Assembly: GCA_951213105.1 (NCBI GenBank)
Contig: OX578140.1
Location: 35,819,256-35,883,255 of the forward strand
Source: Amaurobius ferox
Taxonomy: Eukaryota > Arthropoda > Arachnida > Araneae > Amaurobiidae
Reading direction: 5' to 3'
DNA: 64,000 nucleotides
Below, piece after piece: positions 1,902 through 58,282 of the stretch. The notes under the pieces were generated by a model. That model was not told the DNA's origin. It saw nothing but the letters and a program-made list of their open reading frames with translations, and did no database searches. The position numbers were made by a program, and so were the translations under genes. The first letter of the stretch is position 1. Each line of letters opens with the position of its first letter.

Positions 1902-2293
1902 AGGCTGAGCCAACGGCCCTACCGTGCTGAAAACACCGGTTCTCGTTAGATCACCGAAGTCAAGCAGCATCGGACGCGGTTAGTACTTGGGTGGGTGACC
2001 ACCTGGGAACACCGCGTGCTGTTGGCACATCTCGGGTGCGGTAGCCCGGTGGTTTGCGCGCTGGATTTGCACGCTGCCACAACTGCCGCCGTGTTCATGC
2101 GGAGTACGATCACGTTAAACATGTGGGTCCGTAAGTCCTTCCGAGAGGTTTGTGGTAGGGGAAGGAGGGTGCGGTCCTTGTGGGTGCCTCCCCCACTGGG
2201 TTCCGGTCTAAATTGGGTGGCACTTCCCGGCCGTCCAAACGGTTACCTTACACCTTTCTGGTAGGTCGAACGGTCTGAGTCTCAACAACAACA
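1902..2293 (+). mobile_element. 5S rRNA-headed SINE, full-length copy 1
   Basis: The element starts with a complete 5S rRNA-like sequence (1909-2026). A tRNA-like piece follows (about 2034-2083) that keeps an A-box-like TAGCCCGGTGG but no B box. Then come a body of about 150 bp and a 3' hairpin region in which GGCCGTCC and GGACGGTC-type arms face each other. The tail is a short CAA repeat. A perfect 11-bp target-site duplication, ACAATCTCTGG, lies at 1891-1901 and 2294-2304, so this is a retrotransposed copy. Such SINEs are transcribed by RNA polymerase III and mobilised by a partner LINE, which is not in this window. The 89-aa open frame inside has no coding meaning. Confidence 0.92.
1909..2026 (+). 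promoter_or_regulatory. 5S rRNA-derived pol III promoter head
   Basis: This 118-bp segment aligns end to end with eukaryotic 5S rRNA, from GCCAACGGCC to the terminal GTTGGC. The internal control region is visible: GATCACCGAAGTCAAGCAGC (box A side) and GGGTGGGTGACCACCTGGGA (box C side). Embedded in a SINE with target duplications, it is a promoter module and not a 5S gene of the rDNA array. Confidence 0.9.
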
Positions 2294-2304
2294 ACAATCT
2301 CTGG

Positions 2305-4861
2305 GGGAAATAAAATAATGTTATATGTTTTGGGCTTAACAAAGGACTGTACAAATTACTGCCTTCAAAAAAATTAATCTAGACCTGCCGGTCTGTAAAT
2401 AAAATGAAATTTAATTTGTACTTGAAATGACAGAGTTGGTGCCAATATGAAATCCACACCGATTTTTTATTTTTTTTTTTCAATTCTCGAATTTTTAACG
2501 GTCAAATGTTAAAAATTGTTCTAATGGTCATTTTAACACCGGTCGAAACACTAATTTGAAATGATACTATCTGTTTATAAAATCCCTCACTTTTTAATAC
2601 CTGTTGTAAGTATACACAAGTTCAATTCCCCAAGAAGGGCATCAAATACAAAAAATGAGAATGGACATGTGGCCATATAGCAATTGATACGTATATGCAT
2701 TTTCTGGTTATTCACAATTAAATTTTACAGATAACTTATAAGGGCTGCTTATATATATTTTTTTATTTTTGAACATTTTTTATTTTACTTATTCGGACAA
2801 TTTGTTTAATTTCTTATAGAACACAGACCCGCCGTTTCCCTTTATAGGGTCCCTATACAAAAGTTAAGTACAAGGCTTTTTTATCACGTATTTCAAGAAT
2901 AGCGTCAGACAGAAATATATAAAAAACAGTTGCTTGTAGGAGTGAAGTAAAATATGTACAGTAATCGGCAAACATTGGCGAATTTAGCTGTAATATTTGA
3001 ATACACTCCGCAAATGATCATTTTATAAAAATCCTAAATTTAATGCCTTTATACGGCCCCTATAAAAAATACCAAGTAGTACAATTTTTGAGGTCTTAAT
3101 TACAGTAGTACAATTAAGGCTATTGAAATGTACCCGGCTTTTGATGAAAAAATCACTGATATATTGAAATTGAGAGCTGACCAAACTGAAAAATGCTAAA
3201 ACAATAGAACTCCAAATGGTAGCGCCACCTACTGTGATAAAAGATAAGTAAAACGAGGAAAAATAAAAAAAAATGTTTGGAAATGAACGTCAAGCAAAAA
3301 CAATGAAAAATAAATGAAATGAAAAGTAAATGAACTGACTGGAGCAAATAAAAGCGAAAACAAGAAATAATTCGTCATGGTCTTACTGTATATTGGACAA
3401 ATAGGGTGTCATTGACAAATCGTTAAACATATTACTGACATTTTTATTAAGGCGAAAGACTACAAAGAAATCTGCATAGAAAAACGAAGAACACTTTTGA
3501 ATAATAGAGGCTAAATAATTTTTAAACCGGTGACTTCCCATTTAGCAATTATTAGCGATTGAAGATTTATTAACTTATTGATTATTGACGCAATTTTAAT
3601 GTTCTTTTAAGCAGTATTTTAAGGTACGTTTAGTTTGATAATTATGTCATAGTTCGCATTGACAAGGAATTTGACAAGAATTTTTTTAATGATATGGGAG
3701 AATACCACTTTGAAGTCAAATTTATCAATAATTCTATCAGTTTCATGACTAAGAACAAGGTAAAAAGGAAGACAAATAATATTGTCAAATGTTTTAACTA
3801 GGTCTTCTTTACTCAGATGTGACTTAAGAAATTCGGAAATAGAAAGCTCGAAAATTGTCTGTGATAATTCACGTTCTACAGCAACAGTTTTTAAATACTC
3901 CAGCCAAGACTTTAAAAATTCCGAAAAATTAAGATTTCCAAAACTTACGTCTGCTTACGTAATTTTATTTGCTCAGAATTTTACGTTGTGTCCCTTCACT
4001 ACAGAAGATATACTTCGCTGCTCACTCTCTAGTTTCAAGCATTTTTTTTTTCGCATAATCACTTGTTGAATGATCTACAACAATGGTTTTCAGTCGGTGT
4101 GCCAAAGTAACCTCGGGCGTCTTGAATGATAGTGAAGTGTGCAGTGGGTACAGATGACTATTTTTTTTCTACGTTTTGTTCCAGAAAACGATAAGTATCC
4201 CAATATTTTAGACTAATAATAGTTTTATAGCCGCAAAAATATGTAGTTTGTGAAATGTAGCTTGTACTCAAAAATGTTGAAAATCATTGATCTACACAAT
4301 TGTATTATTTATATATTAATGATACATATATATTTATATGTAGATGCATAATACAAATATATGTAAACAAGGTAGAATATAGTATAAAATACTGTACATA
4401 TAATGTAAACTGCTCAATATAACAAGACCTAAAACACTATATTTAAATAGTACTAGGACATCATATTTTTTAAAATCGCTGGCTATAGTTTCCACCTTAT
4501 TATACATGCAAATATAATAAATTTGTCAATCGTATAACCTATTATTTTATGCTTCATATTTAAATTTCTTGACATTGTGAAACATAGGGTTTTAAATTTA
4601 ACTTCGAATGTTAAACAATTTGTATCAAACGGGTTGTTAAAGTATTAAGCATAAAATGTATCTAATAGTCTAACGTACTTTTATCTTCCCAGACACTCCA
4701 GAAGACACCCCCTCCCCCCCCCGTTGACCTAGAAGACTGAATTTTTCTACATTAGTATAAAGTACAAAATCTAAACCAATTTCACACTTTCTTTTGTGTA
4801 AATATATAACGAATATATATACATTCTCAATATATTCACTATATATTTACATAAGCTTTTG
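2305..4861. other. Non-coding stretch
   Basis: No gene recognised in 2.5 kb of AT-rich sequence with poly-A/T runs. A C-rich run lies at about 4709-4722; on the minus strand it reads as a purine tract followed by TGTC, which could mark an LTR edge but is unsupported by a second LTR. Confidence 0.5.
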
Positions 4862-5850
4862 TTAAATGTATTTAATTATGACAAAAAAAAAAAAAAAAAC
4901 TTTCGATTAGCAAGCAACCTTTCGATAAGCAAGCAATTTCGATAAGCAAGCAACCTTGCATCGCTATGCAACTTGGCATGGCTATGCAACTTTATACCCC
5001 CAACATTGTTTCATATATTTCTTGTCCCCTCAACGTATAAAGCATTCACTCTTATTTATTAATTACTCCGCCATACAACGAACTGCGACTGGTCATCAAA
5101 AATTAATACAAAAACATACCGGCCGTGAATAAGAGTTCTATTTATTTTTGATTTCGACTATGTCAAAGATCATTCATCTTCGTTATCAAAGTTCAGTTTC
5201 AATAAACATACTTTAATTATATTTTTACTTTTTTATGTGTCATATATTGGAGATAAATTGCAACATTCTGTGATATCGTTGTTTTGTTTTCATAAGGAAG
5301 ATAGAATGTATTTTTTCTGTATATGGATTTATTTAAGAAAGTAGCTTGTTTCTTTATTAAAGTTATTCAGTGATGTCCTGCGTCTTATTTATACTAAAAC
5401 ACATTCAGTAGGGAATTGCAACATTTCTTAAAAATTATTATCTTATGTTATAAATATCCAGTTATATGTAAATACTCGTAGTTGGATTAGTTGCAAATAT
5501 ATGATTTCCATTGCATTCGATGTTAAAATTTGAGACTTTATAGATTTACCGTCCAAATGTATATTTTGTCGTTCTAATGGTTTTGTTACTTTAAATAGTA
5601 GAATTAGTCATAAAATATGATTTCCATTGCATTAGATGATAAAATTTGGGATTTTATAGATGTATCTTCCAAATGTAAATTCTGCCGTTCATTTTTTTTA
5701 TTTTACGTGCAGAAAGGGCATTGTAATTTATAAACCTTAATAAATAAACCTTATTTATCTTGAAAATTGCTGATTGTAAACGAATACTGACACTGCCTAT
5801 ACCAATATATATTATAACCTTGTTAAAATTTGTTTCTCACTCAATTTCAC
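4862..5850 (+). repeat. Large tandem unit, copy D1
   Basis: This ~1 kb unit recurs downstream at 6204. Shared landmarks in the same order include GTATTTAATTATG, TTTATTAATTACTC, the block CAATAAACATACTTTAATTAT, TTTTCATAAGGAAG, and TATGATTTCCATTGCATT. The last block is itself duplicated inside D1 (about 5500 and 5600). No coding frame is conserved between copies. It may be an unrecognised transposon or a true segmental duplication. Confidence 0.7.
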
Positions 5851-6775
5851 CTAATAGTTGCAGAGCGTTATCTTACTCGCTGAGTTAAATTGAAATTGCA
5901 ACACATACAGTGACTTGTTCCTTTTGTCTGGAAATTATCATATAAGAACGTCATGCCTACCAATGACTCCAATGAATAAGACAACTTGCTACCACTTTGT
6001 AATTGGTTATTTATGTCTATCTCGCATTGTTGCCGAGTCCGTTATAACTTTTTAAATTCTTATCTAGGGCAGCAATTACATTTATTCGATCGAGTACGAC
6101 CATTTTTCTGTAGATTGATCTATCGAGCATATCCAGAGATCTTGCCATACAAAGTTATTGAAGCTTAAAGTCTTTCCTAGAAACTCTCTATATTTATATA
6201 ACTTTAATCAAACGTATTTAATTATGGAAAAAACTTCAACTTTGCTGAGCAACTTTGGCATCACAATGAACTTCACACCCTGGCATAGTTTCCTATATTT
6301 CTTGTTCCTTTACCATATAAAACATTCAGCTTCGTTTATTAATTACTCTGCCTGAGAACGAATTGCTTCTGGTCATAAGAAATTGATGCAAAAAATACGG
6401 GCCATTAATAAGAGTTCTATTCATTTTTGATTGCGACAATGTCAAAGATCGTTCATCTTCGTTATCAAAGTGCAGTTTCAATAAACATACTTTAATTATC
6501 TTTATTTCTCTTTTTTATGTGTCTTATGCTGGAGATAAATTACATTCTGTGTTATCTTTATCTTGTTTTCATAAGGAAGTGAAAATGCATTTTTACTGAA
6601 TATGTATTTATTTAAGAAAGCAGCTTGTTTCTGTATTAAAGACATTAAGAGTGCTTCTTTATTAAGGGTTCACCGTGATTTTCTATGTTCATTTTTATTA
6701 ACATTGCATTTCAGTCGCAAATTGCAACATTTATTAAAAATGTTCTAATTGTTGATTTATTTTTTGTTATATATT

Positions 6776-7610
6776 TGGGACTAGCAGTATACCCGTTCTT
6801 CGTATTGAAAATATAATATCAAGAAACTTAGCATTTACAATTATGTGTAAATTCCTATAGTATTCTAAATGACTTTGTAAATCAAAACATTCTATTAAAA
6901 TATTTAATTTAATTCTTCTAAAAATGTATAAGACTCTCTGGGCTCGATATGCAAAATTATCTTCACAGGCAGATTTGAAGAATAAAGAATCCTGGTCCAG
7001 TTTGTACACAAATTTGAAAAATATTTTTTAATTCTCATAAAACGACAGAGATTGTTTAAAAATCGTGCTTAATTATGCAAAATATTGAATTTTCATAGAT
7101 TCAGTGTTATTTTGATAAATTTAGCATCATTTTATCAATTTGACAGCATTTTCGTCTATTTAATGATTTTTAAAAAATCGCCAAATTTATCGCCAAACTA
7201 ACTGACAGTCCCACTTGGCGACAAATTGACAAAACATCATCACAATACTATCTGATAAAAAATACAATTAATTTCATATATACAGATCAATTTTATCGAT
7301 TTCAAAATATTTTTATGGATTTACAAACATATTTATCAATTTGGCGACATTTTAAAAATTTATTAAATGTGTTACTAAGTAGGACGGTTGGACTGACATA
7401 TAAATGATACCGAAACATCGTTTCAGTACTCTCTTCTAACAAAACAAAATAAATTTCATTGCTTTAGCGTCATTTTTATCAATGACATGTTCCCATCAAT
7501 TCCCAAAATTTCATTAAATTCTGTTCAGCCGTTCTCCCGTGATGATGAAACAAACAATATATACATACATACAGACAGACAGACAGATTTTCAATTTTAT
7601 TTATATAGAT
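6776..7610 (+). mobile_element. Unclassified interspersed element inserted in D2
   Basis: It begins near GGGACTAGCAGTATACCCG and ends near TTATTTATATAGAT, with an (ACAT)n/(ACAG)n microsatellite just before the 3' end. Internal text (TTTGGCGACATTT-like minirepeats) resembles family A at 10.8, 37.2 and 53.2 kb. D1 runs through this point without it, which gives an empty-site comparison. It is non-coding. I suspect a Helentron-associated non-autonomous element but do not see the terminal hairpin clearly. Confidence 0.5.
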
Positions 7611-7964
7611 TTTTAACTGATTTTCGTCATAAAGATTCGGTTGTATGTAAATGGTTGAATAGTTGCGAATATGTGATTTCCATTGTATTCAATCATAAAA
7701 TTTGGAACTTTCCTGGAATACTTTGTCTACCAAATTCTGCTGCACATGCAAATTTTCTCGCTCGAAACGCTTTTCATTTTATGTGTGGATGCGAGTCCTA
7801 ATTTATATGCTTTAATAGATAAACTTATTCTATCACGGATATGGCTGACTGTAAACTAATTCTGGCGCGTCCTATACACATATTTACTATAATAACTGTT
7901 TAAAAGTTATTTTTCTCAAATATATTTTTACCCACTGACCCATGGACGTAATATTAACAAATAT

Positions 7965-8586
7965 GTAGACCGTTCATTTAATGCAGCGACAAATTCAGAG
8001 GGTTTGTAGTACTCATCAAGAGGGACAAAAATTGAAATGGAACATAATATCGCAAACCACGTTTAGTCGGAGAAAACTGCGAAAATAATAATGCAGGTTC
8101 TGTCGGGGACGACAAGTACAATAATAACTACAAAAATGTTTATTTGACAGCTTGTTTACAACACAGCTTGTGGTCCACTTTACAATGATGGAAAGGGAAC
8201 AATGAGAATGATGCGAACGATAATATTACAGGTCTTGTTCGAAGTGGCGGCATCGGACGTCGTTATAGACTGTTCAATGACATCCCCGGCCTCCACTTCG
8301 AACAACACCTGTAATAATTTCGTTCATATCATTCTCATCGTTCCCTTTCCAGAATTGTACTGTGTACGACAAGCTGTGTTGTAAACATGCTGTGAAATAA
8401 ATATTTTTGTAGTTATTATTGTACTTTTTGTCGTCCTCGCGTGACGTCAGAATCTGCATACGTATTTTTGCCATTTTCACCGACTAAACGTGGTTTGCAA
8501 CACCATGTTCCGTTTCAATTTTTGTTCCCCTTGATGCCTAATAACAACCCCCTGAGTTTGTCACCGCATTAACTGAACACCCTGTA
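7965..8586. mobile_element. Foldback (long inverted repeat) element
   Basis: Nearly the whole element is a palindrome. The left arm (7965-8250) is matched in reverse complement by the right arm (8291-8586), around a loop of about 40 bp. Matching pieces include GCAAACCACGTTTAGTCGG, ACAATAATAACTACAAAAAT, GGAAAGGGAAC and GTTCGAAGTGG. The arms differ by scattered substitutions and small gaps, so the element is not very young. It carries no transposase and would depend on one in trans. Confidence 0.8.
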
Positions 8587-8839
8587 ATTCTAATTGTTAT
8601 TGCAGCAGAGAAATCACCTAAAAATGACACTCAAGAACGTCTTGCCAATGTATACAAATGCTAACCCCAATAGAGTTTCATAGCAATCCCTCAGAAGCGG
8701 TTCCTAATATAAGGTAAAACCTGGTGAGTTGTGATTTAGACGTGTTATGCATTTCTATCACATAGCTACCATTTGAAAACAAATTTTAAATAAAACTTGT
8801 TCCTGAAGGAGGATTAACTTGTTCAAAATTCTCGCGGTT

Positions 8840-9625
8840 GCAATAAATACAATCAACTGATGAACTTTGGGAGAGAACGGATATTGGGTCTTCAAGAGTC
8901 TATGTATCAGCTCGATGTATACAGGCCATGTCGGTCGAGATTGGACCATAAGTCGATGTATGGTGGCTTACGGTCCAATGATGTATCCAAAAATGATTAT
9001 GAATGGTTTCGATATGGTCGTACACCGATAAAGTCGTTACTGGAGTATGTAGTGTAGCTAGACAGCAGAATCATCACCTAATTCACCAACCAATCCCAAC
9101 AATTCCTATGTGCACTTCATAGGCTGACAGATAAACGGTGATATCTGCTATTAGTCAACATATCATCCATCGAATGATCTTCAATAATGATGAATAAGTT
9201 GGGCTACATGATCCATTGCTGAGGTTACGATGGATCACAAATCATTATCAACAGTATTTAGATTTGTGTCTTTCCCGAAGGAACTAGGATACACTATGGC
9301 ATCAAGCTATCATCAATGGCGAATCTAGACTTAGCTTAGGCTCCAATGATATAACTAAGCATTAATATATAGACGCCATGCGAACGATACAATCCACCCA
9401 GTTGTATCGAATGGCACACAACCCAAAAGCATCGCGCCATGGTCTGAGGATTGATCAACTATGAAAATCGTACCATTCAGCAATTACATCATTGAAAGTA
9501 ATTTAAGAGTTGAACGTTATATTGCTGAAATCATGGAACCTGTGGTGATCCCTTTAATAGCTGGTGTGAATAATGCATTTTTCAGAAAGTGCTTTCACAT
9601 ACTACATATCAAGGTATAATAGACC
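8840..9625 (+). pseudogene. Tc1-like transposase relic
   Basis: Read with several frame changes and stops, the plus strand keeps the order of a Tc1 transposase. RERILGLQES (8870s) belongs to the first helix-turn-helix and RHVGRDWTI lies just after it. LDLCLSRRNWDTLWHQ and SRLSLGSND (about 9260-9345) surround the first catalytic Asp, whose DES box is decayed. NLRVERYIAEIMEPVVIP lies at about 9500-9555. The sequence degenerates before the second catalytic Asp and no DE end is visible. The many stops make this an old, dead copy. It is clearly more diverged than the Tc1 at 53-55 kb. Confidence 0.7.
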
Positions 9626-14505: not shown

Positions 14506-14873
14506 GTGCTGAAAACACCGGTTCTCGTTAGATCACCGAAGTCAAGCAGCATCGGGCGCGGTTAGTACTTGGTGGGTGACCACCTCGGAACACCGCGTGC
14601 TGTTGGCCATCTCGGGTGCGGTATCCCCGTGGTTTGCGCGCTAGATTTGCACGCTACCACAAATGCCGCCGTGTTCATGCGGAGTACGATCACGTTAAAC
14701 ATGTGGGTCCGTAAGTCCTTCCGAGAGGTTGGTGGTAGGGGAAGGAGGGTACGGTCCCTGTGGATGCCTCCCCCACTGGGTTCCGGTCTAAATTGGGTGG
14801 CACTTCCCGGCCATCCATACAGTTACCTTACACCTTTCTGGTAGGTCGGACGGTCTGGGTCTCAACAACAACG
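14506..14873 (+). mobile_element. 5S rRNA-headed SINE, copy 2, slightly 5'-truncated
   Basis: Same organisation as the copy at 1.9 kb, but it lacks about the first 16 bases of the 5S head and starts at GTGCTGAAAACACCGG. The tail ends CAACAACAACG. A perfect 15-bp target duplication, ACTTATATCATTAGA, lies at 14491-14505 and 14874-14888. Loss of the 5' end with intact duplications is typical of LINE-driven target-primed reverse transcription. The 91-aa open frame inside has no coding meaning. Confidence 0.93.
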
Positions 14874-15149
14874 ACTTATATCATTAGAGAACAACATGTT
14901 AAGTAATTAAGTTTCTACAACAAATATTATTATATCCAAACACTTAAGAATCCTTATTTAATTAATCACTTATTTTAATTATCAATATAAACACAATATA
15001 AAGGATTCCAACAAAAATCTCTTTTTAGGATGCATTCATATTTATTCCAGATTTTGAAATGACAATTTTATTGTTCTCTGTTCCAGAAATATATCTTTCA
15101 ATTCAAAAGTTTACCTCAAAGTTTCTGCTTACGTCGAATCTCTTTTTCC

Positions 15150-32220: not shown

Positions 32221-34665
32221 TTAATGAATAAATTGGCCTCTTGGGCGCAAGTCATACTTGTGTGAATTAGGAACATTTTGAGTTTTAACCCTATTTTGAT
32301 GGTTTAGAAAATATCTACTTTTAAATTGTCTTGTTTCTTGAGTTGAAGAATTATCAATGTTATCATTATATGTGCTAGAAATCAATTCACTACGTCTAGG
32401 AGGTAAAGGAGTTAATCTATTAACGTGGACCAATTGCTGATTACATGGATTGTTTTTGTGTTGAATGACAAAGTTAACTTCAGTACCACCTCTAACATGA
32501 TTTTGCTTTTCCCCCATATGCAAAGTAACATTCTGTGCATTTACTACCAAATCTCTAAAAGATTTGCTTCCATTTTCCAAATCGTTAATATGTACCTCTT
32601 CACTACCCAAATGTGGCACTACATTATTTTCCGAAAAATTTCTGATCACATACTCTTCCCGAATGACCTGAGACTCATTCACTACCGGTGCCAGATCTGC
32701 TTTGCATTTGGCGCATGCATTCGTATGGAACTCTTTCGGTTTACAGTCCTCTACCACACGAACATTTTTTTCACTACTCATCTGCGAGTCAGGCACAGCA
32801 ATACGCTTTGCGACACTACTTAGGTTTGAGTCTGCAATTTCCGACTCATTTGCCGGTTCATGATTTGAAATCGAAAGTAAATTATTCGTACATTGATAAC
32901 CAACAAAAGGAATGGAAGAGTTTGAAAACTTAAAACAGAAGTGATTATAATCTATAATAGCATTATGTTTATGTAAAAACTTGTTACCAAGGATTACATT
33001 ATATGAAATAGGAGCTGGTGATTTTAACACAAAAAATTCGGTAGGGAATCTTTCTTTTCCCAAATTTAGCGAAATAGTGGCTAAACATTCAACTTTAGTA
33101 TCTTGTGAACTAAAGCTACGCAAAATTGTTGGTTTGTATGTTAGCAACATATGTGCAATGGGTACAGTATTTAAAGCTTCCTCATACACTAAATTAATTG
33201 AACTACCCGTATCAATCAATATTGACACTTCACTGCTCACTAATTTTCCTTTTATAATAGAAGAAGATGACAAAGAATTTGTAATATTATGACAAATATT
33301 ATTTTCCTCAAAATGTGATGTTTGCCTATCAAAAGTTTTTCTATTATTATAATTGTGCATGGGATATCTACTCTGATTCCCAGAAGAATGATTTTTGGAA
33401 TTTTGCAAAGATTTATATGACTCCTTATTTTTATAATTTTGCGTTCCTTGCTTTCTATACTTCCACTCATTTGCAGACATTTGCCCTCTGTGTCTTTCAC
33501 CCTGGTGATACCTAGTTCCAGGACTGGTATAAATTTTCCTACATTTTATACCGTACACATCTCTTTTTTGAAAAACCTTTTTCCAACACTGTTCTTGAAC
33601 GTGACCTAATTTACCACATTTGTCACACTTTGGACGCGGTGAACGCTTTTCGTTAACTTTATCTGAATTAAACTTAAATTTTTCTATTTTACCCTTAAGA
33701 AATTCAATGTCCCTTTCCTGTTCTAACACTTTTCTTTTTAAATCTGACATACTTTCACTTTGATCTGGTGTGAGAACATATTTTTCTGGTGTGAGAACAC
33801 CTTTTTTTGTAAGTACCGGATTAGTCAAGTACATAGCATTATTTTCATTTAAAATAGATTCCTCAAGAATTGCAAGTTTTCTAGCCGAATAAAAATCTCT
33901 AGGGTTTTGTGACAACACCAATCTTTTTAGTTCCGGATATAAACCATTAATAAATGAAGTTTTTAAAAGTGTTTGCCTGATTTTATTCTCACTTTCGGAA
34001 TCTACATCTTCCGGAACAACCTTAAATGAAGCAGCTTCGATTCTCATCGAAAACTGTTTAACCGACTCATTTGGTCTCTGTGTAAAGTTCACGAGTGAAA
34101 TTATGTTTTTAGTGACATTTTCGGTCACTTCAAAATGATCTTTCAAAATGTGAATAATTTCCTGCAAATTTTTACAATTTCTGTGCTTTGGATTCTCTTC
34201 AATCAATCTATTTGCTTCCCCCTCTAAATTCAATCTCAAACAAACTAATTTGTCACACTCACTCCAGTTTGCATGAGTGGCTACTAAATTTAACTTTTCC
34301 AAAAACTGTGACAACGAAAGCTCTGAATTTCCCGAGAATTTTGGAATATGATGTGCGAACTTAGGTGTGAAAATATGGAATGATTTTAACATGTTATCAT
34401 TTACCGATGAAGCACTGTTTTGATTTGGCAAAGTGCCAGAAGAAGAATTCAGACATACCGGCGATTTATCTGATATATTTTCCTCATTAGATTTAGCTTT
34501 GTGGCTAACACTTTTAACTTTACCTCTAGAATTAACAGTATCCGACTCAGTAGCAATATCAAGCGACAAATTCAAGGAGGAATTTAATTTTTTACTTGAA
34601 TTTTTACTCATCTTACCGACATTTACTTTTTTGTTTCTAGTAATTGGAGCCATTTTGCATAACAA
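32221..34665 (-). CDS. gag: Gag-protease polyprotein with fused integrase C-terminal tail
   Basis: The ORF is intact, 814 codons. Residues about 100-275 look like a retrotransposon capsid (PKFSGNSELSLSQFLEKL at 108-125, then helical text). A likely coiled coil follows at 306-332. One CCHC zinc knuckle spans C347-C360 (CX2CX4HX4C). A basic linker leads to an aspartic protease with IDTGSS (484-489) and the NVILG flap-side motif (556-560). Residues 730-752 (NFVIQ..QLVHVNRLTP) and 804-809 (YDLRPR) are typical of the end of Ty3/Gypsy Pol after the integrase. No RT, RNase H or DDE motif lies between. The simplest reading is an in-frame internal deletion that left one open frame. The start was chosen as the first Met (34665); MAPITR five codons in is an alternative. 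Capsid and protease could still act in trans packaging. Confidence 0.88.
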   Translation of the reverse strand: MLCKMAPITRNKKVNVGKMSKNSSKKLNSSLNLSLDIATESDTVNSRGKVKSVSHKAKSNEENISDKSPVCLNSSSGTLPNQNSASSVNDNMLKSFHIFTPKFAHHIPKFSGNSELSLSQFLEKLNLVATHANWSECDKLVCLRLNLEGEANRLIEENPKHRNCKNLQEIIHILKDHFEVTENVTKNIISLVNFTQRPNESVKQFSMRIEAASFKVVPEDVDSESENKIRQTLLKTSFINGLYPELKRLVLSQNPRDFYSARKLAILEESILNENNAMYLTNPVLTKKGVLTPEKYVLTPDQSESMSDLKRKVLEQERDIEFLKGKIEKFKFNSDKVNEKRSPRPKCDKCGKLGHVQEQCWKKVFQKRDVYGIKCRKIYTSPGTRYHQGERHRGQMSANEWKYRKQGTQNYKNKESYKSLQNSKNHSSGNQSRYPMHNYNNRKTFDRQTSHFEENNICHNITNSLSSSSIIKGKLVSSEVSILIDTGSSINLVYEEALNTVPIAHMLLTYKPTILRSFSSQDTKVECLATISLNLGKERFPTEFFVLKSPAPISYNVILGNKFLHKHNAIIDYNHFCFKFSNSSIPFVGYQCTNNLLSISNHEPANESEIADSNLSSVAKRIAVPDSQMSSEKNVRVVEDCKPKEFHTNACAKCKADLAPVVNESQVIREEYVIRNFSENNVVPHLGSEEVHINDLENGSKSFRDLVVNAQNVTLHMGEKQNHVRGGTEVNFVIQHKNNPCNQQLVHVNRLTPLPPRRSELISSTYNDNIDNSSTQETRQFKSRYFLNHQNRVKTQNVPNSHKYDLRPRGQFIH

Positions 34666-38288: not shown

Positions 38289-38930
38289 AAAGGTACTTCT
38301 TGTCACTGATATATTGTTTGTAAAAAATGAACTTAAAAATGATGAAAGTGCATTTTAAAGTCGTATAGACGCTATTTCATCAGGTCTATTTCATCAGAGT
38401 AATTGCATTAGAAAACTTCCAGTAAAATTCTTCGGCAGTTTATTTATCAATAAACAAATCTCATTCAATTAAACCTTTTTCTCGATTTAAACAATTTTCT
38501 CGAAAATCATTCGAATAAAACTTGCATGGGAAAAACTTCGTTAAAATTAAGCGTTTGGGAAAACCAAATAATAGCGCTTTGATTTAGAAATCTCGCATGA
38601 TCCCACATTGCGAACGGCATAAAATTTCAGGATTATTACCATAAATAGGATATTTAAATGTAAAACTAATTACAAAACATTTCCTCCAAACCTTATCTTT
38701 CTCCAAAAATCATTTAAACCAGTGTTGTAATTTCCACTTAAGATTTCATCTGCAATAATACCTATACATATTTTGATAAAAGAGTTTGCCGCTCTGGGAG
38801 ACAGTATAACGTCGTTAAAATCTGCAATTCTCTAAATCGTTTGCATCGGAGCTAATGTTGCCACAAAAGCTTTTAATCCCAAGAAAGTTTAACATATTGC
38901 GCTGCAGTTTCGATACAAAATGGTCTTTGT
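38289..38930. other. Non-coding stretch
   Basis: No gene recognised before the satellite begins. Confidence 0.5.
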
Positions 38931-41044
38931 ATTTCAATTTATAATTAAAGTACATTCTGGGGACGTATTGTCAGAATCGCAATTATTGACCTTGATTGGG
39001 ATCGTTTCGGTATAATTATCATTTATACCGAATCATTATTCAATTATTTCAATTTTATCATTATTTCAATCATTATTTCAATCATTATCATTATTTAAAT
39101 ATTATCATTATTTCAATTTATAATTAAAGTACATTCTGGGGACGTATTGTCAGAATCGCAATTATTAACCTTGATTGGGATCGTTTCGGTATAATTATCA
39201 TTTATACCGAATCATCATTCAGTTATTTCATTATTTCAATTTTATCATTATTTCAATCATTATTTCAATCATTATCATTATTTAAATATTATCATTATTT
39301 CAATTTATAATTAAAGTGCATTCTGGGGACGTATTGTCAGAATCGCAATTATTGACCTTGATTGGGATCGTTTCGGTATAATTATCATTTATACCGAATC
39401 ATTATTCAATTATTTCAATTTTATCATTATTTCAATCATTATTTCAATCATTATCATTATTTAAATATTATCATTATTTCAATTTATAATTAAAGTACAT
39501 TCTGGGGACGTATTGTCAGAATCGCAATTATTGACCTTGATTGGGATCGTTTCGGTATAATTATTATTTATACCGAATCATTATTCAATTATTTCAATTT
39601 TATCATTATTTCAATCATTATTTCAATCATTATCATTATTTAAATATTATCATTATTTCAATTTATAATTAAAGTACATTCTGGGGACGTATTGTCAGAA
39701 TCGCAATTATTGACCTTGATTGGGATCGTTTCGGTATAATTATCATTTATACCGAATCATTATTCAATTATTTCATTATTTCAATTTTATCATTATTTCA
39801 ATCATTATTTCAATCACTATCATTATTTAAATATTATCATTATTTCAATTTATAATTAAAGTACAGTCTGGGGACGTATTGTCAGAATCGCAATTATTGA
39901 CCTTGATTGGGATCGTTTCGGTATAATTATCATTTATACCGAATCATTATTCAATTATTTCAATTTTATCATTATTTCAATCATTATTTCAATCATTATC
40001 ATTATTTAAATATTATCATTATTTCAATTTATAATTAAAGTACATTCTGGGGACGTATTGTCAGAATCGCAATTATTGACCTTGATTGGGATCGTTTCGG
40101 TATAATTATCATTTATACCGAATCATTATTCAATTATTTTATTATTTCAATTTTATCATTATTTCAATCATTATTTCAATCATTATCATTATTTAAATAT
40201 TATCATTATTTCAATTTATAATTAAAGTACATTCTGGGGACGTATTGTCAGAATCGCAATTATTGACCTTGATTGGGATCGTTTCGGTATAATTATCATT
40301 TATACCGAATCATTATTCAATTATTTCATTATTTCAATTTTATCATTATTTCAATCATTATTTCAATCACTATCATTATTTAAATATTATCATTATTTCA
40401 ATTTATAATTAAAGTACATTCTGGGGACGTATTGTCAGAATCGCAATTATTGACCTTGATTGGGATCGTTTCGGTATAATTATCATTTATACCGAATCAT
40501 TATTCAATTATTTCAATTTTATCATTATTTCAATCATTATTTCAATCATTATCATTATTTAAATATTATCATTATTTCAATTTATAATTAAAGTACATTC
40601 TGGGGACGTATTGTCAGAATCGCCATTATTGACCTTGATTGGGATCGTTTCGGTATAATTATCATTTATACCGAATCATTATTCAATTATTTTATTATTT
40701 CAATTTTATCATTATTTCAATCATTATTTCAATCATTATCATTATTTAAATATTATCATTATTTCAATTTATAATTAAAGTACATTCTGGGGACGTATTG
40801 TCAGAATCGCAATTATTGACCTTGATTGGGATCGTTTCGGTATAATTATCATTTATACCGAATCCTTATTCAATTATTTCATTATTTCAATTTTATCATT
40901 ATTTCAATCATTATTTCAATCATTATCATTATTTAAATATTATCATTATTTCAATTTATAATTAAAGTACATTCTGGGGACGTATTGTCAGAATCGCAAT
41001 TATTGACCTTGATTGGGATCGTTTCGGTATAATTATCATTTATA
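38931..41044 (+). repeat. Satellite array of 179/187-bp units with higher-order structure
   Basis: Twelve copies of the anchor CTGGGGACGTATTGTCAG start at 38957, 39136, 39323, 39502, 39681, 39868, 40047, 40234, 40421, 40600, 40787 and 40974. Spacings are 179 (five times) or 187 (six times); the longer form has one extra ATTTCATT-type octamer. Units are nearly identical. Each holds an inverted repeat TTCGGTATA..TATACCGAA with a 9-bp loop. Marker variants recur every 553 bp, so units 5-7 and 8-10 form a three-unit higher-order repeat. The last unit is cut off inside the inverted repeat. No transcript or ORF is indicated. Confidence 0.97.
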
Positions 41045-41220: not shown

Positions 41221-42271
41221 TCATTCATCAACATACTCTCCTTCAAGAGTGATACATTCATTCCAACGCTCCTCTAACTTTTCGATGTTACTAACTTCGT
41301 AGAACGATTTGTCTTTGCTCTCAAAATAGGCCTCAGTTTCGGCAATCACTTCCTCATTTGAGCCTAATTTCTTTCCCTGGAGCATCTTTTTGATGTCTAC
41401 AAAAAGCCAGTAGTAGCTGGGGGCCAGATCTGGAGAGTACGGTGGGTGAGGAAGCAATTCGAAGCGTAATTCATATAATTTAATCGTCGTTTTCATCGAC
41501 TTGTGACACGGGGTATTGTCTTGGTGGAACAGCACTTTTTTCTTTTGCATGTGAGGCCGTTTTTTCTTGATTTCTACACTCAATCGATCCAATAATGCCA
41601 CGTAATATTCGCTATTGATAGTTTTACCTTTCTCAAGATAGTCGATGAACAGAATACCATGCGCGTCCTAAAATACGGATGACATAAACTTGCCACCTGA
41701 CTTTTGGGTTTTCGGTCGCTTTGGACGACTTTCACCGGCTGCTATCCACTCAGCTGACGATCTTTTTGATTCAGGTGTGTAGTAATGGATCCATATTTCA
41801 TCCACTGTCACATACCGATGCAAGAAATCCTTCTTATCTCGTTTGAACAGCTCCAAACAGCGTTCTGAATCGTCGGCGCATTGTTGTCTTTGGTACGATG
41901 TGAGCAAACGCGGCTCCCACTTCGAAAGCAACTTACGCATGCTCAAATTTTCGTGTAAAATTGTAAACACACTACCTTCTGATATCTTTAAGGTGTCAGC
42001 TATCTCACGCAACTTCACTTTACGGTCTGCAAAACTATTTTGGGGACTTTTTTATGTTTTCCGGAACAACTGCCGATTTTGGGCGACCAGAGCGTTCAGC
42101 ATCATCGGTGTTTGTACGACCGCGTTTAAATTCAGCATACCAGTCAATAATAGTTGATTTCCCTGGTGCAGAGTCTCCATAACGCTTATCAAGCCAGTGT
42201 TTGGCTTCAACAGTATTTTTCCCCATCAAAAAACAATGTTTAACCAACACATGAAATTCTTTTTTATCCAT
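41221..42271 (-). pseudogene. Mariner transposase pseudogene (DD34D family)
   Basis: Three pieces in order make a near-complete mariner transposase. 42271-42035 holds the N-terminal helix-turn-helix part (MDKKEFHVLVKHCFLMGKN; ERSGRPKSAVV). 42018-41668 holds the linker and first catalytic Asp (VTVDEIWIH). 41601-41221 holds the second Asp (LFHQDNTPCH) and the C-terminus (ITLEGEYVDE). Breaks: small deletions near 42040 shift the frame, and a Trp codon has become TAG at about 41668-41670. The third catalytic position of the DD34D triad, normally the D of PSDY, reads PSYY, a tyrosine. Each of these alone would abolish activity. Confidence 0.92.
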
Positions 42272-42419
42272 TGTTTTGAAAACTACAAAAGTGGGGTCAG
42301 TAAAGCCACTGTAACCTATAAACTAATTGTCAGAATGTCATGAAATTTTGACACGTGTCGTTTGAAGGTTGGTACTATCCAGAAATCATATGGGTCTGTC
42401 AACAGTGTTGTCATATATG

Positions 42420-42648
42420 TTGTTGTTGAGACCCAGACCGTCCGACCTACCAGAAAGGTGTAAGGTAACTGTTTGGACGGCCGGGAAGTGCCACCCAATT
42501 TAGACCGCAACCCAGTGGAGGAAGCATCCACAGCGACCGTACCCTCCTTCCCCTACTGCCAACCTCTCGAAAGGACTTACGGGCCCACATGTTTAACGTG
42601 ATCGTACTCCGCATGAACACGGCGGCAGTTGTGGTAGCGTGCAAATTA
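42420..42648 (-). mobile_element. 5'-truncated SINE copy 3 inside the mariner
   Basis: In minus orientation it has the body, 3' hairpin and CAA-type tail of the SINE, but is cut off at the tRNA-like segment (ATTTGCACGCTACCAC), so the 5S head is missing. It is flanked by a target word: TTGTCATATATG on the left (42408-42419) and TTGCCATATATG on the right (42649-42660). Confidence 0.88.
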
Positions 42649-42660
42649 TTGCCATATATG

Positions 42661-42729
42661 TTGAAGACCCAGACCGTCAGACTCAGCCTGAGGACTTGAG
42701 CAACTATTTGGACGGCCGGGAAAGACCTG
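42661..42729 (-). repeat. Hairpin mini-unit beside SINE copy 3
   Basis: A 69-bp unit with GACCCAGACCGTC..TTTGGACGGCCGGG arms, closely related to the units at 57.5-58.3 kb. It sits between two copies of TTGCCATATATG (42649-42660 and 42730-42741), the same target word that flanks the SINE. Confidence 0.8.
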
Positions 42730-51097: not shown

Positions 51098-51251
51098 TTT
51101 CCGAGAGGTTGGTGGTAGGGGAAGGAGGGTACGGTCCCTGTGGATGCCTCCCCCACTGGGTTCCGGTCTAAATTGGGTGGCACTTCCCGGCCGTCCATAC
51201 AGTTACCTTACACCTTTCTGGTAGGTCGGACGGTCTGGGTCTCAACAACAA
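51098..51251 (+). mobile_element. SINE copy 4, strongly 5'-truncated
   Basis: Only the 3' body, hairpin and CAA tail remain, starting at TTTCCGAGAGGTTGG. A perfect 15-bp target duplication, CAACAGTTTAATTGG, lies at 51083-51097 and 51252-51266, which proves insertion in truncated form. Confidence 0.93.
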
Positions 51252-51266
51252 CAACAGTTTAATTGG

Positions 51267-54389: not shown

Positions 54390-55363
54390 TCGAACGTAGT
54401 CGTATAGTCGGGATGCGTGAAGCTGACTGGTCATACCTAGCAATAGGCCGCCACCTGCACCTAAAGAACACTGCTGTGCAAAGGTGCTGGCAGCAATAAT
54501 TGCTGCAAAGAACTAATCGGCGGAATGAAGGCTCTGGAAGGCCAAGGTGCACGAATACGAAGCAAGATCGGATGATTGTGCAACAGGTCCGAACTGGCCC
54601 AACGACATCATTGCCCGCCATCCAAGTGATACAGCCTCTTCCATGCCACCTGTGATACCTTCCACCATCTCACAGCGCTTGGCTGACGTGGAGTGACGCA
54701 CACGGCGGCCTTTAAGGCGTCTGCCCATAACCCCACAACATCGACAAAGTCGTTTGGAATGGTGTAGTAGCCGAGCAACATGGCTGCCAGCAGACTGGCA
54801 TCGCATAGTGTTCAGCGATGAATCACGCTTGTCTTTCAGCAGATGACCATCGGGTACGTGTGTGGATGCGCCAGAGCCAGCGGTCACAATCAGCTTTTGT
54901 TTTACACAGGCACACAGCCACTTCCCCTGGTGTGATGGTGCGGGGTTCTAACTCTTACGACAGCAAGTCGCCTCTAGTCATCCTACGTACAACTTTAACA
55001 GCTCAACGATATGTTGATGAAATCCTGTCGCTCTTTGCGTTACCCTTCATGGCACGTCATTCTTGGGCCATTTTCGAACAAGATAATGTCACGCCATATA
55101 CGGCTCGCATATCTGTGGACTGTCTCCGTGCTGTTGTTATTCTTCCTTGGCCATTACGTTCGCCAGACCTTTCACCAATCGAGCATGTATGGGACCTGCT
55201 GAGCCGTCAGATTCAGGCACCCCGAAATGTAGCAGATCTGGAGCAACAATTGAGAAATGTCTGGCAGAATGTATCGCAAGATGACATTAGGAAACTTTAT
55301 CACTCCTTACCTAGACGTATACAAGCATGCATTGCCACCAAGGAGGGTTTCGCCAATTACTGA
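54390..55363 (+). pseudogene. Tc1-like transposase pseudogene (DD34E)
   Basis: The C-terminal half is open from 54818 to 55363 and is plainly Tc1: DDHRVRVW, GVMVRGSNSYDSKSPL, second catalytic Asp in FEQDNVTPYTA and the Glu in RSPDLSPIEHVWD, ending at a normal C-terminus. The first catalytic Asp (FSDESRL, codon at 54817-54819) lies in a different frame, so a frameshift separates it from the rest near 54830. Upstream, helix-turn-helix text (DWSYLAIGRHLHLKNTAVQR, from about 54426) is followed by stops. The gene is dead but less decayed than the Tc1 at 8.8 kb. Confidence 0.88.
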
Positions 55364-57534: not shown

Positions 57535-58282
57535 GATAGTGTTGAAGACCCAGACCGTCCGACTTGTCCGAGGACATGAGCAACCGTTTGGACGGCCGGA
57601 GATAGTGTTGTTGTTGAGACTCAGACCGTCCAACCTACCAGAAAGGTGTAAGGGGTAACTGTTTGGACGACCGGGAAGTGCCACCTAATTTTGACCGGAA
57701 CCCAGTGGGGGGAGCCATCTATAGGGACCGTACGCTCCTTCCTCTACCACCAACCTCTCGGAAGGACTTACGGACCCACATATTTAAGGTGATCGTACTC
57801 CGCGTGAACACGGCGGTAGTTTTAGCAGTGGCGGGAATCGAAGCCGGGCCTAACGAGTGCAATTCCCGCCCGCTAACCACTGGGTTACCGCACCCGGCCG
57901 GAGATAGTGCTGAAGACCCAGACCGTCCGACTCATCTTGAGGACTTGAGCAACTATTTGGACGACCGGCGGGGCGGAGATAGTGTAGAAAACCCAGACTA
58001 CACGACCAACCCAAAGGCTTATGGTAGCTTTCTGTGTGGCCGGGGGCGGAGATAGTGTAGAAAACCCAGACCACACGACCAACCCAAAGGCTAATGGTAG
58101 CTTTCTGTGTGGCCGGGGCGGAGATAGTGTCGAAAACCCAGACCACCCGACTCGTCCGAGGACTTAGAGTAACCGTTAGAGTGGCCGGAGGGCGGAGATA
58201 GTGTTGAAGACCCAGACCGTCCGACTCGTCCGGAGGACTTAGAGTAACTAGTTGGACGGCCGGGAAGGGGGCGGAGATAGTG
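57535..58282 (-). repeat. Serial array of hairpin mini-units and one SINE at a repeated target word
   Basis: GATAGTG occurs eight times (57535, 57601, 57903, 57978, 58051, 58123, 58197, 58276). Between these words lie, in order, one mini-unit, one SINE of about 290 bp, and five more mini-units; repeat spacing across mini-units is 66-79 bp. Mini-units begin GAAGACCCAGACC or GAAAACCCAGACC and end GGACGGCCGG or GTGTGGCCGG. The two ends pair: CCGTCC/GGACGG in the first and last units, CTACAC/GTGTGG and CCACAC/GTGTGG in two others. An inner GTCC..GGAC stem is also present in several. No ORF here is a gene. Confidence 0.9.
57608..57897 (-). mobile_element. tRNA-headed SINE, copy 5
   Basis: On the minus strand the body and 3' hairpin match the 5S-headed copies. 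The head, however, is tRNA-like: GGGTGCGGTAACCCAGTGG contains an A box (TAACCCAGTGG, 57887-57877) and GCTTCGATTCC is a B box (57844-57834), 33 bp apart, normal spacing for a tRNA-type pol III promoter. There is no 5S sequence. The tail is GTTGTTGTTGAG in plus orientation. The flanking word GATAGTG lies on both sides. Confidence 0.88.

Follow-up and report, generated by a model that had tools for sequence, protein, structure and literature searches.

Short hairpin units, here called minis, are separate insertions in the genome of the spider Amaurobius ferox, and their sequences suggest that they are probably the 3′-terminal hairpin module of an I-group LINE RNA, inserted by LINE machinery. In the window (the whole 64,000-nucleotide stretch analysed), coordinates confirm the initial annotation's reading of eight GATAGTG words (57535, 57601, 57903, 57978, 58051, 58123, 58197 and 58276) bounding six units of 66–79 bp and one SINE (successive lengths 66, 302 (the SINE), 75, 73, 72, 74 and 79 bp). 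The RNA sense of the array units is the minus strand, on which the 302-bp SINE reads from a tRNA-like head through a body and a 3′ hairpin to CAA repeats, and the short units each consist of a lone 3′ hairpin and a tail such as TTCAACA; read on this strand, the hairpin is related to the SINE 3′ end, bearing out the resemblance noted earlier. The GATAGTG word is the shared core of the target duplication at the unit boundaries.

All array features lie on the minus strand. Mini 1 (57535..57600), putatively the oldest insertion, has a hairpin beginning CCGGCCG and the tail TTCAACA. The tRNA-headed SINE (57601..57902) and mini 2 (57903..57977) would be the second and third insertions. Minis 3 (57978..58050) and 4 (58051..58122) both have a type B stem and are near-identical, mini 4 being either a separate insertion or a local duplication of mini 3; mini 5 (58123..58196) has an intermediate stem (CCACTC with GGGTGG); and mini 6 (58197..58275) has the common stem CCGTCC/GGACGG and the duplication CACTATCTCCGCCC. 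The upstream (RNA-sense) copy of the target word (58276..58282), where later units would have entered, adjoins the host flank TTGCTACA.

The words at these boundaries are extended rightwards to differing degrees. The first duplication in the window, that of mini 1, is short, with the word at the 3′ host flank sharing 8 nt rightwards (CACTATCT) and 3 nt leftwards; the two words flanking the array SINE share 15 nt; and the remaining array words share 14–16 nt among themselves, of which 11 (CACTATCTCCG, the extension at mini 2) are in common with the SINE pair. The SINE duplication, CACTATCTCCGGCCG, includes the first bases of mini 1, and later duplications include CCC from the 5′ end of the unit at 57903. 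Because later duplications hold bases of earlier units, the array evidently grew stepwise, each new insert entering the upstream copy of the target, rather than through tandem duplication, with seven putative insertions in the window; such a process predicts the nested duplications seen. Of the two routes that the initial annotation had offered, these nested duplications support repeated insertion at one site, and the duplicated word need not have driven any amplification, with the near-identical pair at 57978 and 58051 as a possible exception. Arrays at ten other loci look similar by eye (unscored).

Two other accounts of the array were weighed against repeated insertion. Ordinary tandem duplication of a SINE tail, with the word as part of the repeat unit, would suit the regular spacing of four units (72–75 bp) and the near-identity of the units at 57978 and 58051, which extends to 14 nt of tail, but hairpin type, tail and 5′ end vary from unit to unit, the extensions of the word nest as a ladder (8, 11 and 14–16 nt), other loci have different words and solitary copies have their own target duplications. 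The ladder and the mixed hairpin types lead us to reject this extremely improbable account for the array as a whole, although it may hold for one neighbouring pair. An array made in one event, by a reverse transcriptase that jumps from RNA to RNA and copies the target strand in between, would give the units of an array their common orientation and word; however, later duplications hold the 5′ bases of an earlier unit, for example in the SINE's CACTATCTCCGGCCG, which requires the earlier unit to have been there beforehand, and we regard template jumping as very unlikely. A MITE or fold-back DNA transposon was also considered and rejected: an unpaired tail follows the stem, and one-armed copies still have duplications.

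Beyond the window, we searched the 3.56-Gb assembly (276 contigs). The initial search recovered SINE and mini arrays, each locus with its own word, and because it was biased towards arrays, a single 24-mer from a mini 3′ end was chosen as query. It has 14,130 exact copies (7097 + 7033; reversed control, 0), a count that misses shorter or diverged copies, the 24-mer matching exactly in only two of the seven window minis. From the first 71 listed places along C1 (drawn from 30 loci and 40 stretches), three duplicate sequences were dropped, and 56 of the 68 distinct places have a target duplication (score at least 11), against 20 of 1360 mismatched pairings; a clear duplication is absent in 12. 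The flank consensus in this sample is TTAC|ACAC. Insert lengths were 60–63 nt in 32 of the 56 (18 at exactly 62), 66–67 nt in 8 and below 60, down to 31 nt, in 10, with six longer by script, partly because of neighbouring duplications. At least two units with one word were present in 21 of the 68 places, or 15 once two places lying in CA repeats and four lying in the SINE's own site are removed; in the other 47, the word was common to no other unit within 1.1 kb.

Some copies show further local histories. Six exact type B hairpins at G000:C4:57890810-57894946 lie at ~454 bp or multiples of it, in a local tandem array carrying a mini; places L232, L239 and L242 have identical flanks, the mini being carried inside another, later multiplied repeat; and doubled tails such as CTTCAACACTCCTTCAACA (L008:1703-1715, L214, and L004 on the minus strand at 2166 and 2443) perhaps reflect slippage or a tail-only jump. 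Rfam searches of the array, a SINE head and L198 matched the mini to no known small RNA; on the array, nothing for the mini exceeded the cut-off, in a scan that also missed the SINE's own tRNA part. Viral contigs gave no match, nor did protein searches with an array frame and the gag-like frame at 32221–34662 at the thresholds used. A 17-base degenerate pattern matched at least 118 stretches of prokaryote contigs from unrelated bacteria and archaea, which we took as chance.

Stem pairing is conserved through sequence change. As the initial annotation had observed, CCGTCC/GGACGG (57555/57590) and CCACAC/GTGTGG differ at three stem positions on both sides; the wobble that it had read at 57998/58034 is, in the alignment, a C–A mismatch in the minus-strand RNA sense, the single mismatch of mini 3. 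The covariation check that it had proposed was made on 33 hairpins (7 from the window and 26 from L002–L008; 32 distinct) over 15 pairs, of which 94.1% of cells are paired. Both sides had changed in 35 cells, compared with a mean of 7.8 after shuffling (reached in 0 of 500 shuffles) and with 0 to 8 in structures slid by 1–3 columns, so that changes are paired beyond chance. Two of the five covariation measures were not extreme, namely the number of pairs with a double change (7; value reached in 33 of 500 shuffles) and of further pair types (19; 39 of 500). Folding energy alone was mildly unusual (z from −0.4 to −3.8 for five hairpins).

The 5′ ends of the minis are sharp and lie at hairpin boundaries: at the stem base (~62 nt), 4–5 nt further (66–67 nt) or at a second hairpin's base (~90–93 nt); in the predicted fold, the 62-nt form opens with the first base that is paired. 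Among the 56 copies with duplications, 28 have a 5′ end no more than 2 nt from the stem base, 11 reach CTTCCC, 12 are truncated (including L155 and L173, which are 62 nt long with a changed stem) and 5 are other. Individual hairpin types behave in the same way. For type A3 with CTTCCC, 624 exact copies were found; 19 of 20 fetched from C1 have duplications of 13–19 nt by script (best of 380 mismatched pairings, 10 nt), in the twentieth, L214, one was made out by eye after a longer tail, 17 copies start 0–3 nt before CTTCCC, and in L212 and L226 another unit precedes across the duplication. For type B (356 exact copies), duplications of at least 9 nt were found in 19 of 20 fetched copies, L261 being the single exception, and 17 of these reach at least 12 nt (best of 380 mismatched pairings, 12 nt); all 19 start 0–3 nt before the stem base, 13 exactly at it. 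Type A1 with CTTCCC has 364 exact copies, and 16 of 20 fetched have duplications of at least 9 nt by script; three others have one flank in common inside another repeat, with a duplication by eye, and mismatched pairings reached at least 11 nt in 8 of 380, largely because of that flank in common. The remaining A1 copy, L240 (the same place as L274), is longer and without a duplication. Target duplications at genome-wide copies, which the initial annotation had made its check on separate insertion, are thus present in the 24-mer sample and in all three types.

Longer copies were also recovered. The extension before TTCCCGG is common to L139, L171 and L240, and an extended form (AGTTGGC...TTTC) has 147 exact copies (72 + 75). 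Seven of 12 fetched (L269–L272, L276, L279 and L280) have a duplication of 14–17 nt that ends 3–5 nt before AGTTGG (best of 132 mismatched pairings, 12 nt); L275 has a 9-nt match running into that sequence, L274 has no duplication, and L273, L277 and L278 continue into further sequence. The extension of the ~90-nt form is a second predicted hairpin (z −3.2) with its base at the start of the form, AGTTGG, so that 5′ ends fall at three points: the bases of hairpins 1 and 2 and the stretch between the two hairpins.

Related, young LINE 3′ ends point to the machinery involved. A LINE copy at L197 (~1963 to 9324) lies inside a SINE's CTTACACCTTTCTGG, flanked left and right by the same word, and terminates in a related hairpin. 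Its first frame (644 amino acids) has no Pfam match, and two further, overlapping frames of this copy encode endonuclease, reverse transcriptase and RNase H domains; the TRAS1 endonuclease (1wdu) was a sequence match. Of 1528 first-look candidates, all 40 listed are scored as 100% identical over 556 bp, and at other loci open frames of up to 1231 amino acids cover the RNase H part. The machinery behind mini insertion is probably a LINE of this kind, with these three domains and such a hairpin at its end. This common LINE has 323 exact long ends, and all 100 listed show one and the same hairpin letter and carry a hairpin other than those of the minis, in a pattern able to show A1 or A2, not A3 or B. 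L151 and L180 extend upstream into a LINE. A third LINE-like 3′ end is represented by L273, L277 and L278: the start of L277 encodes an ORF2 end (70.6% over 51 amino acids), and L273, with an exact A3 hairpin at its end, resembles L277 at 79% over 129 nt. Reading L273 as a LINE end depends on that similarity, L273 having no protein match of its own. By hairpin type, A3 is matched in the LINE-like L273, A1 has an extended copy (L240), and no LINE with a type B hairpin was found.

A second LINE family (L198 and L199–L208), whose ORF2 shows 58.5% identity across most of its length, has a complete tRNA-headed SINE after its 3′ end in all 10 fetched among the best of 40 listed; at L205 this SINE is interrupted at an CTTACACC site. 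The SINE's own hairpin holds CTTACACCTTTCTGG, an insertion site for minis and the LINE (L151, L161, L163, L180, L187 and L197). Among 48 SINE-type tails in the loci fetched, the body lies directly upstream in 34, and the tail is cut at the stem base in 3 and within the hairpin in 5.

In the route that we propose, the template RNA would be the last hairpin (60–67 nt) or the last two (~90–93 nt) with a short tail (TTCAACA and variants). A LINE endonuclease would nick sites like TTAC|ACAC, the RNA tail would be reverse transcribed starting at the nick, and joining would create a duplication of ~14–16 bp. The flank and duplication, jointly holding the target sequence, would be left unbroken on the 5′ (RNA-sense) side of the insert, so that the site would be reusable and each later insert would enter the upstream copy. 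We infer that LINE proteins do the work and that the endonuclease reads the motif; the short templates would be pieces of LINE RNA produced by cutting or trimming at hairpins, or else cDNA synthesis would have halted at the hairpins.

The minis might instead be an element of their own, a discrete 60–67-nt hairpin RNA transcribed from a promoter of its own or of the host and moved in trans by the LINE. The sharp 5′ ends, the identical copies of a few hairpin types, the absence of A1 and A2 among the 100 ends listed for the commonest LINE and the failure of all 20 type B copies to run into a common upstream sequence (by eye) would fit such an element. Yet A3 occurs exactly on the LINE-like L273, the A1 copy L240/L274 is longer by at least 21 nt, no promoter was seen, and identical hairpin types show three different 5′ ends, each at a hairpin boundary, which structure explains better than a start site would. 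We consider an independent element rather unlikely; instead of a separate RNA gene, the likelier source of the short templates seems to be LINE RNA trimmed or cut at hairpins, or polymerase stopping at them. The scarcity of long copies counts against fragments, because ordinary truncation should yield many lengths: a clear LINE-type extension is present only in L151, L180 and L193 (~24 nt) of the 68 places, and 3 of 100 listed A3 places fall in the listed extended set. With A3 exact on LINE-like copies, the minis look more like 3′-terminal LINE RNA fragments than an independent RNA; of the initial annotation's 'retroelement or tail element', the latter fits better, an independent RNA being the less favoured option. 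More tentatively, the minis may amount to a retroposon class consisting of the LINE recognition hairpin alone, a discrete 60–67-nt RNA held by its fold, with types diversified while pairing was kept, that piles up at a reused nick site; we regard this as possible, if doubtful.

The window holds related elements outside the array. Another mini (42659..42722, minus strand; word ACATATATGGCAA) lies beside a 5′-truncated SINE (42418..42646, minus strand), the two having one target word in common. This SINE is one of four further copies in the window with target duplications of their own (by eye), the others being a second 5′-truncated copy (51099..51256, plus strand; duplication CAGTTTAATTGG) and two with a 5S-like head. 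The SINE at 1909..2310 (plus strand; duplication CAATCTCTGG) has a full 5S rRNA head (106.9 bits, the match being run at 1909–2027 only), a tRNA-like part, a body, a hairpin tail and CAA repeats; that at 14506..14875 (plus strand; own duplication) is 95% alike, likewise with a 5S-like head and then a tRNA-like part. Another SINE gave a weak tRNA match below the Rfam cut-off, and ARAGORN found no tRNA in the window. A tandem array of 11.5 copies of a 187-bp unit occupies 38930–41044, and frames at 32221–34665, 41221–42051 and 54809–55363 are presumably, by eye, an LTR-element gag/protease, a mariner transposase and a Tc1 transposase, respectively.

Minis work like both SINEs and truncated LINEs. 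Hairpins with compensatory changes, common to LINEs and SINEs, have already been described (PMC3747384, PMC5729268), and the CR1-tailed passerine and plant L1-tailed SINEs introduced there resemble minis in their LINE-type 3′ hairpin, compensatory changes and target-site duplications. Like SINEs, minis have LINE-type target-site duplications and a 3′ end in common with a partner LINE (a related hairpin in L197, exact A3 in L273); unlike the LINE-tailed SINEs outlined in those reports (PMC5729268, PMC3747384), they are bare hairpins with no Pol III head (tRNA, 5S or 7SL) and no body, the tail module being inserted alone, and are thus not SINEs. With 5′-truncated LINE copies, as summarised in PMC4245944, they share target priming and duplications near 15 bp, and related LINEs are present beside them, with one hairpin type exactly in common; but in place of a spread of 5′ ends, mini ends cluster sharply at hairpin boundaries with few intermediate or longer copies, which sets minis apart from ordinary truncated LINEs. 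Sequential or chimeric L1 insertions are akin, in the outline given by PMC13174262, in that independent insertions can end up as neighbours, whereas in minis, as compared with that outline (PMC13174262), one target copy is reused, with words in common at 15–21 of 68 places. Nor do minis behave as a satellite, unit and word not being duplicated together. Site-specific LINEs such as TRAS/SART or R1 likewise combine an endonuclease-type LINE with repeated use of a target sequence, but the mini target is short, degenerate and scattered through the genome.

In the titles and abstract openings searched, no description was found of hairpin-only insertions in serial arrays, nor of such hairpins going in by themselves in large number, with sharply defined ends and one target used again and again. 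Thousands of natural insertions of a near-bare recognition hairpin indicate how little template suffices for a LINE, and they provide many variants of one hairpin with known outcomes. Because the ends are sharp, the cause of insert length (trimming of the RNA, its cutting or polymerase stops) becomes open to experiment, and the nesting of duplications allows the order of insertion to be read from one genome.
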